Shown here one piece after another: positions 3-17,690 of a DNA stretch of 64,000 nt. Numbering within the stretch: the first letter of the stretch is position 1; the number at the start of each line of letters is the position of its first letter. The notes beneath the pieces are model-generated. The model did no database searches and was not told the DNA's origin. It saw nothing but the letters and a program-made list of their open reading frames with translations. The DNA comes from an uncultured bacterium (GTDB lineage: Bacteria > Cyanobacteriota > Vampirovibrionia > Gastranaerophilales > Gastranaerophilaceae): assembly GCA_902779645.1 (NCBI GenBank), contig CACZCH010000003.1, forward strand, positions 62,001 through 126,000, given 5' to 3'. Both the position numbers and the translations under genes were made by a program.

Positions 3-368
3 GAAGGTATGTTTAACAATTCGAAATTAAATATGGTTTTAAATCCCGGTACGCTTGGAAAAGTAAATCTTCAATTGATTAATACAAAAGACGGTTTAAC
101 GGCACAGTTTACCGTAACTACGCAAGAGGCAAAAGATTTACTTATGAAAGGTTTTGACGGGTTAAAAGAAAGTTTGCTTGCTCAAGGAGTTAGTATTGAC
201 AGCTTGTCAATAAAACTTGAAGAAGCTGATAATGAAAATCTTTTTGATTGGACAGAGCAAGAAGGTTCAAAAGGCGGTTATAAACAACAGCAGACAAAAA
301 AACAAAAAGAAAATGAACAAAGTTTTGAAAAAATGATGTTCGATATAGAAAACGAAGAAAATGTATAA
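3..368 (+). CDS. fliK: Flagellar hook-length control protein FliK, C-terminal part (5' end outside window)
   Basis: The reading frame is open at the left edge, so this is the end of a longer gene and the ATG at 9 is probably internal. The pattern MVLNPGTLGKVNLQL, a second strand, then GLKESLLAQG matches the FliK C-terminal (Flg_hook) domain, which contacts FlhB to switch flagellar export from hook to filament subunits. After it comes a variable Gln/Lys/Glu-rich tail, as is usual. The gene lies 18 bp before flgD, the normal hook-operon order, which supports the call. FliK proteins diverge strongly, so the name rests on this domain and the neighbours. Confidence 0.8.
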   Translation, partial: EGMFNNSKLNMVLNPGTLGKVNLQLINTKDGLTAQFTVTTQEAKDLLMKGFDGLKESLLAQGVSIDSLSIKLEEADNENLFDWTEQEGSKGGYKQQQTKKQKENEQSFEKMMFDIENEENV

Positions 369-386
369 AAATATTGGGAGAAGGTT

Positions 387-863
387 ATGTCTACAATTAC
401 AAGCCAAATAACGGCAATGAAAAACGAAACAGCATTAGTGCAAAACCAACAGGCGCGTACTACTGGCATGCAAAATGACAGCAATATGTTTTTGACTCTT
501 ATGCTTAAACAATTGGAATGTCAGGATCCAACGGAGCCAATGGATAATACTGAATGGTTATCTCAATTGGCACAGTACTCATCGCTGGAGCAAATGACTC
601 AAATGAACAGCGGTTTGGAAAATTGTGCAAAATACATTAATGCAATGTATGACGATATGATGATTAATTCTGAGATTAATCAAACATTGTCAATGATCGG
701 TAAAGATGTAACTCTTCAAATACCGAACGAATCGGATCCAAAAAATCCTACAACTGTAACCGGCAATGTTACAGAAGCAAGTTTTGAGGATGGAAGCGGA
801 AAAATAAAAGTTAACGGTCAATACTATTCAATTGAAAATGTTGTTTCAATCAGAGAAAAATAG
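387..863 (+). CDS. flgD: Flagellar hook assembly scaffold protein FlgD
   Basis: FlgD caps the growing hook and helps hook protein FlgE to polymerise outside the cell. The FlgD core is clear at residues 34-69: MFLTLMLKQLECQDPTEP, MDNTEWLSQLAQ and SSLEQ. At 158 residues it is shorter than the usual 220 or so and ends soon after a small beta segment, so the C-terminal Ig/tudor-like part is reduced. The start follows a GGGAGAAGG ribosome-binding site. It sits between fliK and flgE in one operon. Basis: motif plus gene order. Confidence 0.92.
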   Translation: MSTITSQITAMKNETALVQNQQARTTGMQNDSNMFLTLMLKQLECQDPTEPMDNTEWLSQLAQYSSLEQMTQMNSGLENCAKYINAMYDDMMINSEINQTLSMIGKDVTLQIPNESDPKNPTTVTGNVTEASFEDGSGKIKVNGQYYSIENVVSIREK

Positions 864-912
864 ACATAAAGATTTATAAAAATTATAACCAGACGAGAGA
901 GGAATATAAAAT

Positions 913-2241
913 ATGTCACAAGCATTACACACTTCAAGTACCGGTATAAATGCCGGACAATCCCAAATTAACGTTATTGCACATAACGTAGCAAACATTA
1001 ATACTGTTGCGTACAAGTCAGCTAATATGACTTTTGAAACACTTTATTCAAACAATTTGTCATATGGTAGTGCGGCAACAAAAGACGGCGGTGGTACTAA
1101 TCCGAAACAAATCGGCTTGGGTGTTAAAATTTCCGGTATTACAAGAAATTTTGACGCAGGTACGTTTGTTTCAACCGGAAGAGACTTGGATACAATGATT
1201 TCAGGTACAGGTTTCTTTGTCGTTCAAGATGCTGATAAACACCAATATTATACACGTGACGGTGTGTTTAATGTAGATTCAGCCGGTAACCTTGTTACTC
1301 AAAACGGTATGAAGGTTATGGGTGCAAAATCTATATATTCAAACGCAGGTTCTGATAAAACAGTTAAAATACCTAAAAACATGCTTGCAAAAATTTCGGG
1401 CGATCCTAATATTTCTTCAAGAAAGATAGAAGACTTAAATAATGCGAGTATTACAGAAGGTAAAGTTTCAGTTGATGTTACTGATACGAGCGGAAATACA
1501 ACCAATGTTCTTGTAGACATACCATCAGGTGACCAAACGGTAGGTACTATTGTAAGTAATTTCAATTCTGCTTTAAGTTCTTATGGTATAACATTTGCGG
1601 CTTCTGACGGTACAATATCGTATACGAATGCAGGTTCATACACAATGAAGTTTTCATCAGACGGTACAACAAGCAACTTTCTTGGTGAAACAGGATTAGC
1701 TAATAGTACTACTTCAAATTTATTAAGCGAAACTGTTATTCTTCAAGATATGGTTAACTACAATGATAAAAATGCAATTTCATTAAAAAGTACAGCAATT
1801 GATGAAAACGGTATTATTGTTGCAACTTATAATGACGGTTCTATTTTAACTCAATACGTAGATGAGTCAGAAGCTCTTCAATGGAAGTATACAACTCCTG
1901 AGGGAGTTACAATTTCAGGGAGCGATGTTACAGCAGAAGGTTCGTCAATTAAAGATTCAAACTTTGCGTTAGAACTTGCAACGATGGTAAACCAAGAAGG
2001 TCTTGTTTCTTTAAATAATAACTTGTGGGAATGGGGACCGGATGTTGGTGAAATATACTATGGTATTGCAGGTGAGATGGCATTTGGTTCAATTGAATCC
2101 GGCGGATATGAAGAATCAAACGTAGATATAGCACATGAATTATCAAATATGATATCAGCGCAAAGAATGATTCAAATGAACTCAAGAGTCTTTAATACAG
2201 CAAGTGAAGTAATGCAGCAGCTTGCATATCTGGGACAATAG
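913..2241 (+). CDS. flgE: Flagellar hook protein FlgE
   Basis: This 442-residue protein builds the flagellar hook. The N-terminal flagellar rod/hook signature (GINAGQSQINVIAHNVAN, then INTVAYKS) lies in the first 40 residues, and the C-terminal partner helix (SNMISAQRMIQMNSRVFNTA) lies in the last 35; these helices pack against each other in the axial structure. Between them are the D1 region (GTGFFVVQD, YTRDGVFNVDSAGNLVTQNG) and a variable, Ser/Thr-rich outer domain. The length is normal for FlgE and longer than FlgF or FlgG. It is the third gene of the visible hook operon and ends before a strong stem-loop. Confidence 0.93.
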   Translation: MSQALHTSSTGINAGQSQINVIAHNVANINTVAYKSANMTFETLYSNNLSYGSAATKDGGGTNPKQIGLGVKISGITRNFDAGTFVSTGRDLDTMISGTGFFVVQDADKHQYYTRDGVFNVDSAGNLVTQNGMKVMGAKSIYSNAGSDKTVKIPKNMLAKISGDPNISSRKIEDLNNASITEGKVSVDVTDTSGNTTNVLVDIPSGDQTVGTIVSNFNSALSSYGITFAASDGTISYTNAGSYTMKFSSDGTTSNFLGETGLANSTTSNLLSETVILQDMVNYNDKNAISLKSTAIDENGIIVATYNDGSILTQYVDESEALQWKYTTPEGVTISGSDVTAEGSSIKDSNFALELATMVNQEGLVSLNNNLWEWGPDVGEIYYGIAGEMAFGSIESGGYEESNVDIAHELSNMISAQRMIQMNSRVFNTASEVMQQLAYLGQ

Positions 2242-3914: not shown

Positions 3915-5381
3915 TTAAAATCCGATAGATTTTCTTGTTGCGTTTGTCTTATACAAATCTTCTTTAATCTTTTTGTTTTGGTTTTCCGGCTTTTGAATAA
4001 CTTCTTCGTAGTCGGCAAGAGTTATATCTCTAATGCCGTTAATAAATGCCATTTTTCTTGTTTCCGTTGCAAAGTCTTCCAATGCTCTTATTGAGAAATT
4101 TTCTGTTAGTTCTGCAATTTTATCTAAAGCTTTTTCATCTTTAGCGAGAGTTTTTCCGTTATCTGTTTCTTCTAGTTTCATTTTTATAATAGACTTTCTT
4201 GCATCTTTATCAGGTAAACCGGTATAAACTTGCTGTCTAAGTCTTGATGAGAAGGCTTTATCAATACCGTCATAATTGTTTGTTGCAGCTATGACAATAA
4301 TGTTATTTTTAGGAGCTTCTTGAACTCGTTTTAAGAAAACGGCAAGCTCACTCTTTTTATGGTCATGCATAAAAGCATTTCTATTTCCTACAATACCGTC
4401 TACATCGTCTATAAATAAAATTACAGGTTTTTCTTCTGTCGCAATTGACGCTGCATAATCAAAAACGGCGCCTAAGTTAATTTCGCTTCCGTTAATGTAT
4501 TCTGAACCGAAAGAGTCAGTTGTTAATTCTAATAAAGGAAGCCCTGTCTCAACGGATAATCTTTCAACAATTGTTGTTTTACCACAGCCTGGGGGGCCGT
4601 AGAAAAGGATTCCGTTAGGTCTTTTTATACCATAATGTTCTTCATTATATTTTGCTTTTGCAGGTTCTTTTAAAGGAATAATTATATCTTCCATTAACTG
4701 TTTTTTAAGTTCTTTCATACCGCCCAGAGAATCAAAACCCTTTAACTCTTGTTTTGTTGTAGGTTCATAATGGAAAACTTTGCTTTTCCCAAGTTCTATT
4801 CTTTTTTGCAAATCTTCTGAAATATCTTCATCATCTTCATTATCAATGTATTCTTGTCTGAACATAGGAGACAAACTTGAAAAATCAAATTTTTGCTCAG
4901 GAAATATCTCATGCATTACAGTTGAAAGTACATCTACCATTTTTTCAGCTTCGTCTTGTTTTTGATGTTCAGATAACGTTGCAACAAGAGTATTCATCCA
5001 ATGCGCAGGATTTTGTTGAATATCTTCTCTCTGTTTTATTTCTTCTGAGTATGTTTCAAGTTCTTTTTTTCTGTAATCATAAGATGGGAATAGTGCATTA
5101 ACCATATTTGTTAAAAGAATTTTAGCGGGAAGGAAAGTTGCTATTAAAGCTGAAACCAAATAAGGTTTGTCTTTTCTTTCTGCTTCACGCAGATTCTTCT
5201 CCGCATTATTCGTTGAAGTCACCATTTCTTTCAGGTATCTGTAATATGCCTTATTCTTCTTTTGAGCATCAAACATTCTGACAAGTTCTGCGTTAACTTG
5301 AGGATTATATCCGAAAGAAGTGTTTACCCCTGTATTTCTCCCTGTACCAGAATTTACCCCTTGAATTTTTTGTATTTGCAT
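3915..5381 (-). CDS. AAA+ ATPase with SF-type N-terminal tag and IGF tail
   Basis: This is a 488-residue single-ring AAA+ ATPase. Walker A GPPGCGKTT is at 262-270, Walker B ILFIDDVD at 321-328, sensor 1 ATNN at 366-369 and an SSRLR arginine finger at 378-382. The closest known types are FtsH/Cdc48/spastin-like remodelers, but there is no protease domain. The N terminus is an Asn/Gly-rich leader ending in TSFGYNP (residues 21-27). A hydrophobic stretch at about 74-98 could insert in or lie on a membrane. It ends RKSIGF, almost as in the AAA+ protein at 8474-9976. Substrate unknown. Confidence 0.85.
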   Translation of the reverse strand: MQIQKIQGVNSGTGRNTGVNTSFGYNPQVNAELVRMFDAQKKNKAYYRYLKEMVTSTNNAEKNLREAERKDKPYLVSALIATFLPAKILLTNMVNALFPSYDYRKKELETYSEEIKQREDIQQNPAHWMNTLVATLSEHQKQDEAEKMVDVLSTVMHEIFPEQKFDFSSLSPMFRQEYIDNEDDEDISEDLQKRIELGKSKVFHYEPTTKQELKGFDSLGGMKELKKQLMEDIIIPLKEPAKAKYNEEHYGIKRPNGILFYGPPGCGKTTIVERLSVETGLPLLELTTDSFGSEYINGSEINLGAVFDYAASIATEEKPVILFIDDVDGIVGNRNAFMHDHKKSELAVFLKRVQEAPKNNIIVIAATNNYDGIDKAFSSRLRQQVYTGLPDKDARKSIIKMKLEETDNGKTLAKDEKALDKIAELTENFSIRALEDFATETRKMAFINGIRDITLADYEEVIQKPENQNKKIKEDLYKTNATRKSIGF

Positions 5382-8473: not shown

Positions 8474-9976
8474 TTACTTGTTAAATCCAATTGGTCTGCG
8501 GTCTGAACCTTCACGTGTTTCTATGAATTTCTGAATTGATTTATCAAAATCTTCTTGATTAATTCTGAAGTTACGTTTATCTTTTCCTGTGATTGTGCCG
8601 TTTTCCATTTTTTCGTGAATGCCTGCTCTATCATAACCGAGAATATGAGCTTCATTTATTATGTATCTGATATCAGCACCGCTTGCATTAAGTTCAAACA
8701 TTCTTTTTATTAGTGTTTCTTCATCAATATCTTTATCTATTGGCTTATTTGCGGAATGTATTTTGTAAATTTGTCTTACACCGTCCAAGTCAGGTTTTTT
8801 TGCTTCCAAATGTTTGCTTAATCTTCCCGAACGTGTCAAAGCTTTATCCAGCGCTTTAAAATTGTTTGTAGCACCAATTACATAAATATTGTCTTTACTT
8901 TGATCCAAATCACTAATCAGTGTTAGCAGTTGGTTTAGGGTTTTATCTCCGTGAACATCTGTTCCGCCTCTCGATTTTCCTATTGCATCGATTTCATCAA
9001 TAAACAAAATACTTGGCTGTTTTTGTCTTGCTTCTTCAAATAAATTTCGCCAGTTTTCTTCCGATTCGCCAACCCATTTTGATTCCATCTCCAAACCGTT
9101 CAGACTGATAAAGTTGGCTTCCGCTTCATTTGCTAAAGCTCTTGCGATATGGGTTTTACCTGTCCCCGGAGGCCCGTATAAAATAAACCCTTTGTTGACG
9201 TCAAAGTTTTCGTACATCTCAGGATATTTTATCGGGAAAAGAATACTTCTTTTAAGTTCTTTTATGAGTTCATCTTGCCCGCCGACATCTTTAAAGGTTA
9301 CTTTAGTCTCTTTTTCTTTTACTTCTCTTGAGAGCTGCGAAACGACTTTTCTGTTTAGTTTTTCAATTTCTTCTTGTACACCTTTTGAGAAATCTACGGC
9401 TTTACAGAAATTTTTTCTGTATCCTGTCAAATCTACTTTTGGTTTATCTTTTATTTGAAGAGCTTCTTTGTTATTCGGCATTATGATTAAATCATTATCA
9501 TATATATAAAAACTGTCATTAGCGGTTAAAACATCCGTTTTAAGAGCTTCCGCATCATGAAGTCTTATATCATAATCATTCAAATTTATGACTTGTCTGT
9601 CTCCGTCTTTATCTTTGAAGAATCCAAGATATCCTTTGTGTTTTTCTTCCGGCAGGTAAAATACGCGTTTAATTAAAGTATCAATATTATCAATGCACTC
9701 AAGAAGTTTTAGTTTTGTTTGGCTTAAGCTTTTGCCGACAAGAATTACGTCTCCGTTCTCCATTTTTTCAAACATTGAAGCCAGTCTGTCCTCAAGCGGT
9801 ATTTTTAGTACAAATTCTAAGGATTCCTTTGATACAGCTCTAAATGATATTTGATTATAGTTTTTATTTAATAAATTCAAATCTGTTATGTTATTTGAAT
9901 AATTATTTTTAACTTGTTTATTATTTTTATTAATTTGACTGTTTAAAGCAATATTGTTAATTGGTAATATTTTCAT
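8474..9976 (-). CDS. AAA+ ATPase with SFRA N-terminal tag and IGF tail
   Basis: This 500-residue AAA+ ATPase has a Cdc48/FtsH-type core: DVGGQDELIKELK, Walker A GPPGTGKT at 268-275, an ESKWVGESEENW pore-loop region, Walker B SILFIDEID at 322-330 and GATNNFKALDKALTRSGR with sensor 1 and arginine fingers. No protease motif (HExxH) is present. The first 50 residues are an Asn-rich leader ending in ISFRAVS (tag at 43-49). The C terminus RRPIGFNK recalls RKSIGF of the AAA+ protein at 3915-5381. The two share tag, fold and tail but differ in their middle domains, so they are related yet not recent copies. Role unknown. Confidence 0.87.
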   Translation of the reverse strand: MKILPINNIALNSQINKNNKQVKNNYSNNITDLNLLNKNYNQISFRAVSKESLEFVLKIPLEDRLASMFEKMENGDVILVGKSLSQTKLKLLECIDNIDTLIKRVFYLPEEKHKGYLGFFKDKDGDRQVINLNDYDIRLHDAEALKTDVLTANDSFYIYDNDLIIMPNNKEALQIKDKPKVDLTGYRKNFCKAVDFSKGVQEEIEKLNRKVVSQLSREVKEKETKVTFKDVGGQDELIKELKRSILFPIKYPEMYENFDVNKGFILYGPPGTGKTHIARALANEAEANFISLNGLEMESKWVGESEENWRNLFEEARQKQPSILFIDEIDAIGKSRGGTDVHGDKTLNQLLTLISDLDQSKDNIYVIGATNNFKALDKALTRSGRLSKHLEAKKPDLDGVRQIYKIHSANKPIDKDIDEETLIKRMFELNASGADIRYIINEAHILGYDRAGIHEKMENGTITGKDKRNFRINQEDFDKSIQKFIETREGSDRRPIGFNK

Positions 9977-13742: not shown

Positions 13743-15653
13743 GTGAAAAATCTATCATTTATATATAAAAATTTAATAGTTTTATCCTTGGTATTGACTG
13801 CCCTAACAGTACCATCTTCATACTGCTCCGCGCAAGATGAATCCGATGGTTTAATTAATGAAACGGATTATATTGAAGAATCAACCTACGATTCAAGTAC
13901 AGCATATATTAGCGATATTGAGATTCTTGGCTCTAATATTATCAAGTCAGATTACATTCTTTCAAAGATGAAATTAAAAAAAGGTGATTTGTATGATAAA
14001 GAAGCTATGCAGCAGGATTTGAAAACTATATATAAACTCGGTTATTTTACCGAAAAAATGAAAGCAATCCCTGTTAAGAACTCAAATGGTACAATATCAT
14101 TAAAAATCATAGTAGAAGAAAATTTACCTATTACGGACTTCACAGTAGAGGGTAATACAGTTGTATCAACAGAAGAAATTATGCAATATCTGCTTCCTCT
14201 TAAAGGAAAACCTCAAAACATCGCAGCAATAAATCAGGCAATGGAGCAGATTAATCAATGTTATTATGCAAAGGGATATATTTTATCAAAAATTGACTCC
14301 ATATACGATGACCCCGATGGTACGCTTAATATAGGCATAACGGAAGGAAAAATTAATTCTATATCAATTACAGGAAACGAAAAAACAAAAGATTATGTAA
14401 TTAAGCGTAATATAATGACAGAAGCCGGCAGTGTGTACAATGAAAATCAAATGAAACAGGATTTGGTCAGATTGTATTCAACTCAGGCATTCAAGGATGT
14501 TAACAGAACAATTGAAGCATCACCTGATGATCCGGATAAATTTGATGTTACGATAGAGTTGAAAGAACAAAGAACAGCATCTGTATCAGTAGGCGGAGGG
14601 CTTGATTCTGCTACCGGTGTGTTTGGTTCACTTGGTATAACAGATAATAACTTCCGAGGCAGAAATCAAAGAGTTTCTTTGACAGGTATGGTCGGTTCCG
14701 GTGTCTTGATGAGTGATTCGTCAATTTTGAGAAAGGTTAACTATCAAGCTGAAATTAGCTTTTTTGAACCTCATTTCTTGAATGCGGATAACTCATTAAT
14801 GAGTAAGTTGTATTACAGAGATTTGGGCAGTTATCAAATTCCTCTTGCAATGGAACGCAGAATCGGAATAGAAAGCACATTGGCACATCGTTTGAAGGTG
14901 AACAAAAGGTTATCTTCTACGTTTACTTTAGGTGTTGAACATATTCATCTTTCGGAAGGTGATAAAGCAAGAATTGAAAGCCTATACAATTTGCACGGTT
15001 TGAATATAGCTGATCGTGCAAAAGAGCTTGAAGGCGGGCTATTCTTGAAGGTAGCTCCGGGTATATCTTATGACTCAAGAGATTCTGCGATAGTTCCCAG
15101 AAATGGTGTAATTGCTTCTGTAAGATTTGAAGAAGCTCTCGGGCTTGATGGATTTAGTAAAACAAACGGAAGGTTAACAGGTATGGCTAAAAAATATATA
15201 CCTGTTGCTAAGAAGTCCTCTTTATCTTTCACAGGACGAGGCGGTTTGAAAGTTCATGGCTCTGATTTTCCTGAAATTATGGCTTACCGTTTAGGCGGTC
15301 CTTATACTGTCAGGGGGTACAAAGTTAACGGTGTAGGTACAGGTACATCGTTCATTATGGGTTCTGTAGAACTTGCTACCCCAATACCGTTTGTTGATAA
15401 GTTAAAACTGGCTTTCTTGCAAAATCTGAGATTAACATTCTGGGTTGATGCAGGTACTGTATTTGATCCTACAATATCAAGTATTATATACGATAGACCT
15501 CTTCATGCAATTACTGCAGGTGTAGGTTTGAAGATAAATATGCCGGGAGTAGGACCGTTGTCAATCGATTACGGCTTCCCGCTCACGAATCCGGGACCGA
15601 ACGGAAATCGTAACGGATACTTTACGTTTGGTGTAGGCGATATGATGTATTAG
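13743..15653 (+). CDS. bamA: Outer-membrane assembly protein BamA (Omp85)
   Basis: BamA folds beta-barrel proteins into the outer membrane. A signal peptide covers about residues 1-30 (hydrophobic core, then SYCSAQ). Three POTRA domains follow, starting near ISDIEILGSNIIKSDYI, ITDFTVEGNTVV and INSISITGNEKTKDY; three is the usual cyanobacterial number, versus five in E. coli. The 16-strand barrel has the Omp85 signature RLGGPYTVRGYKVNG and ends in FTFGVGDMMY. Start is GTG, with GGAG upstream. It is direct evidence that the cell is diderm. skp follows 81 bp later. Confidence 0.95.
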   Translation: MKNLSFIYKNLIVLSLVLTALTVPSSYCSAQDESDGLINETDYIEESTYDSSTAYISDIEILGSNIIKSDYILSKMKLKKGDLYDKEAMQQDLKTIYKLGYFTEKMKAIPVKNSNGTISLKIIVEENLPITDFTVEGNTVVSTEEIMQYLLPLKGKPQNIAAINQAMEQINQCYYAKGYILSKIDSIYDDPDGTLNIGITEGKINSISITGNEKTKDYVIKRNIMTEAGSVYNENQMKQDLVRLYSTQAFKDVNRTIEASPDDPDKFDVTIELKEQRTASVSVGGGLDSATGVFGSLGITDNNFRGRNQRVSLTGMVGSGVLMSDSSILRKVNYQAEISFFEPHFLNADNSLMSKLYYRDLGSYQIPLAMERRIGIESTLAHRLKVNKRLSSTFTLGVEHIHLSEGDKARIESLYNLHGLNIADRAKELEGGLFLKVAPGISYDSRDSAIVPRNGVIASVRFEEALGLDGFSKTNGRLTGMAKKYIPVAKKSSLSFTGRGGLKVHGSDFPEIMAYRLGGPYTVRGYKVNGVGTGTSFIMGSVELATPIPFVDKLKLAFLQNLRLTFWVDAGTVFDPTISSIIYDRPLHAITAGVGLKINMPGVGPLSIDYGFPLTNPGPNGNRNGYFTFGVGDMMY

Positions 15654-15734
15654 TGATAATGTGCCTTGAAGCTAAAACATTAAGAAAATAAGAAAATATA
15701 AAATAATAAAAGTAAAAATGAAAGGAGTAATAAC

Positions 15735-16181
15735 ATGAAAGGTCTAAAATTAGGTTTAATAGCTCTTGCTATGATTGCTGTAACAGGTGTTGTTAATGCA
15801 GGAGGTGTCGGATATATTGATTATGCAAAAGTAATCGATAACTATGACTATGCAAAACAAGTAACAAAAGAAGTTGATGCTAAAGGTTTAGAAATGCAGC
15901 AATATCTTGTTGACAAAGAAAAAGAATATAAATCTTTAGATACACCTTTGAAAAAACAAACTTTTGAAGAAAGAGTTTCTCAAGAATTCAAAGCAAAAGA
16001 AACTGCTTATATGTCATTGAGAGAAAAAAGAGAAAAAGAAGTTTATACAAAAATTCAGGAAGCAGCGAAAGCTGTTATGGTTGAACAAAAACTTGATGCG
16101 GTAATGGATGCAAGAGGAGTATTTGTCGGTGGTGTCGATATTACTCAAAGTGTAATTCAAAAATTAAAAACTGCAAAATAA
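15735..16181 (+). CDS. skp: Periplasmic chaperone Skp/OmpH family
   Basis: Skp holds unfolded outer-membrane proteins in the periplasm. The 148-residue protein has a signal peptide (residues 1-22, ending VVNAGG), the OmpH start GVGYIDYAKVIDN, a long charged coiled coil (about 40-115) and the closing DARGVFVGGVDITQSVIQKL. Length and design match the family. It follows bamA, the classical partner gene, and has an AAAGGAG ribosome-binding site. Confidence 0.9.
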   Translation: MKGLKLGLIALAMIAVTGVVNAGGVGYIDYAKVIDNYDYAKQVTKEVDAKGLEMQQYLVDKEKEYKSLDTPLKKQTFEERVSQEFKAKETAYMSLREKREKEVYTKIQEAAKAVMVEQKLDAVMDARGVFVGGVDITQSVIQKLKTAK

Positions 16182-16223: not shown

Positions 16224-17690
16224 ATGTACAACAAAAAAATGCAATATGTAATAAAGTCAGTTCCAACAGATGATAAGCAGGCATTAGAAGATTTGCTTAA
16301 CAAAATGTCCGAAGATGGCTGGGACTTATATACAATGCATGAAGTTGAGACAGACGATTCTTACGAATTTAATTGCATTTTTATGAAACAAAAACAGGAA
16401 GAAGAGCAAACCGATTTAGATGATATTGTAAACATTACAAGCTTTAAATATAGAATGGAAAAAATGCTTGCAGCTCCTTCAAGTCCTTATGCTTCTTGTA
16501 AAGAGATTCAATTAAAAATTTCAAACCAAAAAGATCGTATTAAAAAGATTAAATCTCAGTTAGAAAGTGACAGTCTTTCTCCTGATGAGAAAAATCAACT
16601 GAATACTCAAATGTCGGATGAACTCAGACAGCTTGACAGCTTGAAGCAATCTTTGGTCAATGAGATATCTCCGGATACAATGTTTGCAACAATCAAGGAA
16701 GAAAAGTTTGTTGTTAATTTATCGGAAGAAATTCTTGAACTTATTTCAATGGAAGCTAATGATAATTTGCTTGCTGAAACAGTTAAAATCAGACAAAAAC
16801 TTGCGGACTCTTTAGGGTATGTAATTCCTCATATTCATTTTCATAACAGTGATGAACTTAATCAAAACGAATTCAGTATAAAAATTCATGATATAGAGCT
16901 CTTTAGAACCGTTGTTTTCCCCGGATATGTTGCATACTATAAAGATGAGCTCAAAGGGTACAAAAGAACAGAGGATGATATTGTACTGAGTGATGAGATT
17001 ACAGGTAAAAAGCTTATTTGGATTCCGCAGGAAAAAGTTAAAGATTTTTGGCTCCACGGTATGACTGCTGTTGAGTATATAGGTCGTGCAATAGAAGCAA
17101 TTGCAATAGAAGAAGTTTCGGATATTATGGACTACAATGACGTTAACAAGTATGTAGAAAAAGTTATGGAAACAAATTCCTTCTTGGTTGATAATATTCT
17201 TCCTGATTTTATGGCAGCTTCTGATTTAAAATATCTTTTGACTTGTTTGATTAGAGAGCATGTTTCCGTTAAAAATATTGTTTATATTTTTGAAAAAATA
17301 AATGATTATGCAGGTGAACCTACAAAAGAAGATTTGCTTGATAAAGTCAGACTGGCTCTTTCTAAACATATTATAAAAGATTTGGCGGTAGAGGGAGAAC
17401 TCAGAGTTATTGAATTTTCAGATGAAACATTAGAGAAAATATATGCATTCTTTAGCGAAGACGAAGATGAAAATATTATAAGAATTGAAGCAAAAGATGT
17501 TGAAGAGATTTCAAATAATTTAATAAAATTTGCAAAATCAAAGAAAATAAAGAATCCAACAATCGTTGTTCCGATGGATATCAGACATATGGTGTTTGTA
17601 ATTTTAAGTGAATTTGTTCCGAATTTGACGGTTCTTGCTCACGAAGAACTTGTTTCCGAGTGTGATATTAAGTTTATCGGAAAAGTTTAA
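16224..17690 (+). CDS. Soluble FlhA-type (FHIPEP) export-gate domain protein with DUF4177-like N terminus
   Basis: The first 55 residues (YVIKSV..., LLNKMSEDGWDLYTM) resemble the DUF4177 fold. A coiled coil follows at about 95-150. From about residue 160 to the end the protein matches the cytoplasmic domain of FlhA/type III export gates: IRQKLADSLGYVIPHIHFHN, FSIKIHDIELFRTVVFPGY, a segment like LLGRQEVQ.L, LTCLIREHVSVKNIVYIFEK and IVVPMDIRHMVFVILSEF. The 6-8 membrane helices of real FlhA are absent and there is no signal peptide, so it is cytosolic. It lies far from the hook genes, 42 bp after skp. Function unknown; a regulator or decoy of flagellar export is one idea. Confidence 0.78.
   Translation: MYNKKMQYVIKSVPTDDKQALEDLLNKMSEDGWDLYTMHEVETDDSYEFNCIFMKQKQEEEQTDLDDIVNITSFKYRMEKMLAAPSSPYASCKEIQLKISNQKDRIKKIKSQLESDSLSPDEKNQLNTQMSDELRQLDSLKQSLVNEISPDTMFATIKEEKFVVNLSEEILELISMEANDNLLAETVKIRQKLADSLGYVIPHIHFHNSDELNQNEFSIKIHDIELFRTVVFPGYVAYYKDELKGYKRTEDDIVLSDEITGKKLIWIPQEKVKDFWLHGMTAVEYIGRAIEAIAIEEVSDIMDYNDVNKYVEKVMETNSFLVDNILPDFMAASDLKYLLTCLIREHVSVKNIVYIFEKINDYAGEPTKEDLLDKVRLALSKHIIKDLAVEGELRVIEFSDETLEKIYAFFSEDEDENIIRIEAKDVEEISNNLIKFAKSKKIKNPTIVVPMDIRHMVFVILSEFVPNLTVLAHEELVSECDIKFIGKV

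Follow-up and report, generated by a model that had tools for sequence, protein, structure and literature searches.

The cytoplasmic ring of FlhA is usually studied as part of a membrane-embedded gate, and one gene in the window (the whole 64,000-nucleotide stretch of DNA that was analysed) raises the question of why a bacterium should encode the cytoplasmic half of such a protein on its own. The gene (16224..17690, +) starts with ATG and encodes 488 amino acids plus a stop codon. Pfam analysis revealed that residues 136–479 match positions 321–655 of the 657-position FHIPEP model (E 2.4e-46), scoring 158.9 bits where the cut-off is 29.1. Among the NCBIfam models, FlhA scored higher than SctV/HrcV (134.5 vs 86.7 bits), and an SctV rather than FlhA origin was rejected on this ground. 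The FlhA match covers model positions 316–678 only, and both scores are far under the full-length equivalog cut-offs (772.1 for FlhA) because the membrane half is absent. No membrane helix was detected in a hydropathy scan with 19-residue windows, the top window (1.61) falling on the C-terminal strand/helix itself. Judged by profile match and predicted D1–D4 fold, the protein belongs to the FHIPEP (FlhA/SctV) family as its cytoplasmic part; without an N-terminal membrane half, it is not a FlhA/SctV export gate proper.

A chance frame, a frameshift, or a pseudogene was ruled out by the open frame together with dN/dS values, which were approximately 0.03–0.07 within the genus where calculable and are approximate owing to high dS. 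The gene is under purifying selection. A split flhA, with the membrane half encoded next door, was likewise ruled out: the flanking genes encode Skp (148 aa) and a thioredoxin-like protein, and two full-length flhA genes are located on other contigs of the same genome, so the soluble protein is not one piece of a split gate.

An AlphaFold2 model built with 22 orthologues (mean pLDDT 80.9, pTM 0.64) revealed four parts: a beta-alpha-beta-beta unit (residues 6–56), an acidic low-confidence stretch (59–85), two long helices (88–148), and an FlhA-C domain from approximately residue 158 to the end. Subdomain boundaries in the FlhA-C domain were transferred from the Salmonella FlhA numbering. On the basis of the model, structure comparison, and alignment, the first part of D1 spans residues 161–233 (16704..16922, +), followed by D2 (234–279; 16923..17060, +), the second part of D1 (280–301; 17061..17126, +), D3 (302–379; 17127..17360, +), and D4 (380–488; 17361..17687, +). 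Foldseek and VIA-align matched the model to FlhA-C and SctV-C chains with Z values of 22–30, and the closest solved chains by sequence were FlhA-C, the best being 3mix. Comparison with FlhA-C structures (PDB 3A5I, 6CH1-3, 7AMY, and 3MIX) gave VIA Z values of approximately 30 across 320–339 residues, and the model thus predicts a complete FlhA-C fold, D1–D4, over residues 158–488. The invariant FlhA-C residues L383, R391, G399, P403, W465, D508, L544, E559, R579, R655, and E676 (Salmonella numbering) are shared, whereas G368 and the dimple positions F459 and T490 are changed in the soluble proteins. The cytoplasmic domains of SctV, YscV, MxiA, and CdsV (7ALW, 4A5P, and 6WA6) have the same fold (Z 22–29), but they belong to full-length membrane proteins and are the weaker match by sequence, as the HrcV score indicates.

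Unlike flagellar FlhA, the soluble protein is a separate gene product in which an N-terminal module takes the place of the membrane half. The first domain (aa 1–56; 16224..16391, +), a predicted beta-alpha-beta-beta fold with a pLDDT of 85 when folded alone, resembles DUF4177 (PF13783), a family for which we know of no function. All 22 isolated orthologous N-domains matched PF13783 (best E 4e-5), and single proteins scored 22–23 bits, under the Pfam gathering score of 25; given these scores, we describe the domain, which is fused to FlhA-C, as DUF4177-like rather than as a proven member. A DUF4177 scan of 28 related genomes returned two matches only (23.0 and 22.1 bits), both to the N-domain of this gene. 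When the N-domain was compared by fold on its own, even the best Foldseek match (E 0.044) was not convincing, and the similarity of the domain to the KCTD5 C-terminal domain (VIA Z 6.3) may merely reflect a common arrangement. The acidic segment that follows (aa 57–86; 16392..16481, +), with pLDDT below 50 at residues 59–85, contains a short helix, FKxxMEKM (aa 74–81). The strict motif occurs in 43 of 57 ORFs (one of the 57 is an FlhA2 fragment filed there in error) and in none of 90 full-length FlhA proteins; most of the remaining ORFs carry a close variant. The module ends in a two-helix coiled coil (aa 87–148; 16482..16667, +) in the AlphaFold2 model. The original prediction of a free FlhA cytoplasmic domain behind a DUF4177-like domain and a coiled coil is borne out by these results; its gene coordinates were exact, but it put the extent of the FHIPEP match at the last 330 residues, where about 340 were found.

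The gene is hosted by the order Gastranaerophilales, in which 190 of 192 genomes carry it when counted by best E-value. The two order genomes that lack it, G134 (98% complete) and G028 (83% complete), yielded FlhA matches only, by profile. A search of another 45 genomes of the class with profile A1 did not find the full architecture, the matches being just the FlhA-C part of longer FlhA proteins or other truncated FHIPEP genes. Across 292 phylum genomes, the best non-order E-value among the matches listed was 9.5e-51, whereas the full-length protein gave values of 2.9e-128 or lower. In a named genome collection, nearly all relatives carried the label Candidatus Gastranaerophilales, Melainabacteria, or uncultured gut bacterium; this search, the sole one reaching other phyla, was a pattern scan tied to the N-terminus of the soluble family. 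Throughout this order FlhA-C has been kept as a soluble protein in its own right, and the retention of the gene in nearly every known member suggests that it serves as an additional working component of a flagellum relative that lacks the filament. Subscription papers aside, we found no literature report of a soluble FlhA-C-only paralogue or of a T3SS in Gastranaerophilales.

The two full-length gates of the window's genome differ in their surroundings: FlhA1 adjoins fliP, fliR, and flhB (contig C9), and FlhA2 (G000 C1:216626-218602) lies in a fliE-fliF-fliG-like-fliH-flhA cluster in which some gene names were given by reading. In a phylogenetic tree of the C-domains, the soluble proteins and FlhA1 each formed a clade (100/100 for both), and the soluble clade branches in step with the order's families: the soluble gene has a single origin and is inherited vertically. 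Topology testing left room for a sister relation between the soluble clade and the order's FlhA2 (AU p 0.094), and the quick tree carried a warning that long branches meet. At eight alignment columns (≥80%), the soluble proteins agree with FlhA2 and not with FlhA1; these include a deletion of three residues at Salmonella positions 479–481. No column groups the soluble proteins with FlhA1 instead, and FlhA1 was rejected as the source on this ground. The likeness to FlhA2 includes Q392, D456, I545, K552, and F558 and a motif in D3, LIRExVSxKxIxxxFE. Profile scores were approximately 165–212 bits for the order's FlhA2 and 66–116 bits for FlhA1. By these characters the soluble protein is closest to FlhA2, and we infer that it arose from the FlhA2 lineage on the order's stem. 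FlhA2 itself, unlike the soluble protein, is membrane-bound.

FlhA2 was detected in 112 of 117 order genomes and FlhA1 in 40 of 117; a second FliP, located on contig C4 in the window's genome, was present (FliP2) in 35 of the 36 genomes checked. Of 11 genomes sampled that lack FlhA1, 10 have no Flagellin_N match, the exception being G095 with one, and rod-protein matches remain. In G001, which lacks flagellin, the second system comprises FliE, FliF, FliG-like, FliH, and FlhA2 (L310), FliN/FliM-type, FliO, FliP, FliQ, and FliR (L311), and the rod proteins FlgB, FlgC, and FlgF/G-like (L309). This second flagellum-type secretion system, which we name T3SS-2, is still found in genomes that no longer have flagellin and FlhA1. 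Earlier work took the incomplete flagellar gene sets in Gastranaerophilales to mean that flagella had been lost in part (PMC4040986, PMC3787301). Di Rienzi et al. reported two flhA among 13 flagellar genes common to four genomes, of which MEL.A1 is without filament and L/P rings (PMC3787301), and one of these two flhA may be the soluble FlhA-C gene. The soluble protein co-occurs with T3SS-2 rather than with a motile flagellum, a pattern that largely reflects shared ancestry within one order, where independent losses that could test the co-occurrence are few. G134, with FlhA2 and FliP2, lacks the soluble protein, which shows that T3SS-2 can occur in its absence. Conversely, G045, G096, and G121 carry the soluble protein and FliP2, with no full FlhA2 found and gaps possible.

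The reading that we favour, at a probability somewhat short of even, is that the soluble protein derives from the cytoplasmic half of FlhA2 and serves the T3SS-2 export platform as an accessory subunit, acting on the FlhA2 ring via D1 and D3. It would dock on the ring, or join it, through its D3/D1 surfaces and the end of the linker, while the DUF4177-like domain, the FKxxMEKM helix, and the coiled coil might recruit or order another component, candidates being the ATPase complex, a FliJ-like protein, or cargo; its action would not pass through chaperone binding in the canonical dimple. We counted in favour of this reading the near-universal retention, the FlhA2 diagnostic columns, the co-occurrence with FlhA2 and FliP2, the conservation of D3 and the DUF4177-like domain, the loss of the dimple, the purifying selection, and the adjacency to flagellar-type genes in one genus described below; counted against it were the absence of a T3SS-2 operon, the shared ancestry, G134, the three genomes without a full FlhA2, and an evolutionary rate faster than that of FlhA2. 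A more specific and rather unlikely form would make the T3SS-2 gate heteromeric or two-tiered, with a soluble ring joining or stacking on the FlhA2 ring via D3 and adding a crown of DUF4177-like domains and coiled coils. If true, a type III export platform would here possess a second FlhA-C subunit that is both dedicated and detachable.

The genomic neighbourhood bears on a different explanation, in which the protein has left secretion and become a neofunctionalised cytosolic scaffold on the FlhA-C fold, forming its own homo-oligomer in an unrelated housekeeping role; we regard this as doubtful, with a modest chance of being correct. The immediate upstream neighbours in the window are bamA and skp (13743..16181, +), and in f1 genomes the gene is flanked by bamA, skp, and nucleoside phosphorylase genes, named by reading. 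Neighbours in other families differ and are mostly housekeeping genes, which would suit such a scaffold, as would the divergence of D2, D4, and the dimple and the retention of the gene in G045, G096, and G121, where FlhA2 was not found. However, FliP2 is still present in these three genomes, so loss of the system is not demonstrated there, and D3 retains its FlhA2-type motif. Furthermore, in genus g36 (family f7; G007 and G013) the gene lies directly 5' of fliJ-, fliK-, flgD-, and flgE-like genes, named by reading, with FlgE also matched in the search; outside g36, no conserved operon with T3SS-2 genes was found. A conserved bamA-skp operon was ruled out by the variation between families, and the bamA-skp neighbourhood is incidental. 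The description of the gene as lying beside bamA-skp and not with flagellar genes therefore holds for its immediate neighbours but not in general, as g36 demonstrates, nor even for the window as a whole, which includes the C-terminal part of fliK, flgD (387-863), and flgE (913-2241) at 9..2241 (+), 14 kb upstream. Of these hook genes, flgE was also identified by match (G000:C3:62925), and fliK and flgD by reading and by their order in L099; their closeness to the soluble gene may be coincidence. Two other genes in the window, at 3915-5381 (-) and 8474-9976 (-), were read as AAA-type ATPases that carry long extensions at the N-terminus.

Conservation within the FlhA-C domain differed between subdomains. 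Across the 22 orthologues, column conservation was 0.73 for D3, the best conserved part of the gate domain and equal top with the DUF4177-like domain (also 0.73), 0.59 for D2, and 0.57 for D4, the lowest. Mean identity between the soluble protein and FlhA2 was 0.32 for D1, 0.17 for D2, 0.37 for D3, and 0.20 for D4. The soluble gene evolves faster than FlhA2, which is far more conserved in the order: within-order identity was 93% for D3 and 80% for D4 in FlhA2, whereas the corresponding values in the soluble protein were 50% and 28%. D4 and D2, least conserved here, are the binding places of FliJ and chaperones in known systems (PMC8166844).

FlhA-C is a chaperone docking platform whose dimple comprises D456, F459, and T490 (PMC8166844), and the cytosol would be the natural place of action for a soluble copy, withholding chaperones or cargo from the membrane gates as a decoy or delivering them as a loading platform. 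In the alignment mapping, the D456 position is kept in 17 of 19 soluble orthologues (D257 in the protein studied here) and W465 in 19 of 19, as this explanation would expect. However, the F459 position (T260) is T, S, or N in 16 of 19 soluble orthologues, where all FlhA1 rows have F or Y and all order FlhA2 have Y; the T490 position (R288) is mostly R, E, S, K, or Q, where all FlhA1 have T and order FlhA2 have T or S; and H491, in or beside the dimple, is mostly A or N, where order FlhA2 has H. These positions are now polar, charged, or variable, D2 is among the least conserved parts, and the dimple is degenerate. The loss of F459 and T490 disfavours the competition for chaperones that the original prediction had suggested, and we consider the decoy or loading role improbable. 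The other suggestion of that prediction, a ring formed by the soluble protein itself, may hold, and D3 is the best-kept part of the gate domain. With D3 and the new N-terminal domain conserved and the dimple lost, the family separates ring-related from chaperone-related surfaces.

The end of the FlhA linker (aa 149–160; 16668..16703, +) carries S149-P150-x-x-M153, which is invariant among the soluble proteins. In known FlhA, linker residues E351/W354/D356 stabilise the ring (PMC8166844), and the linker contacts the neighbouring subunit in FlhA-C nonamers (PMC8213127, PMC8166844). The conservation of this segment and of D3 would also fit an assembly or quality-control factor that transiently templates the FlhA2 ring through these surfaces and is then released, a role that the present data do not distinguish from that of a permanent subunit and that we consider quite improbable. 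A decaying duplicate without present function, to which the missing membrane half and the fast evolution might point, is scarcely credible, being contradicted by the selection data (dN/dS approximately 0.03–0.07), the retention in 190 of 192 genomes, the confident fold, and the conservation of D3 and the DUF4177-like domain.

FlhX of Campylobacterota is a truncated paralogue of FlhB with the FlhB C-terminal domain. It is counted among flagellar secretion proteins (PMC9321776) and offers a functional analogy, as a soluble cytoplasmic export-gate part encoded separately beside the full-length one; unlike the soluble FlhA-C protein, it derives from FlhB, not FlhA, and differs in fold and lineage. 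The soluble FlhA-C family provides a testable natural variant of the FlhA cytoplasmic domain, and it draws attention to a conserved, little-studied, filament-less flagellum-type secretion system in gut Gastranaerophilales.

Several further genes were observed in these genomes. The window's genome (2.06 Mb) contains eight flagellin-domain matches over several contigs, and a 2167-aa ORF, apparently rich in coiled coils, lies a few kb from flhA2 (L095 2631-9134, -). The same genome has a 213-aa truncated FHIPEP gene near a gyrB-like gene (L097 848-1489; G000 C15, -), whose match to FlhA falls into a D1-like and a D3-like piece, D2 and D4 being largely missing. Truncated FlhA-type genes seem to be a recurrent feature of the class, with further examples at L180 6146-7036, L306 1972-2979, L307 3998-4867, L303 2796-4457, L305 151-1113, and L301/L302; these encode 289–553 aa where whole, several have little or no membrane half, and one adjoins FlhA2.
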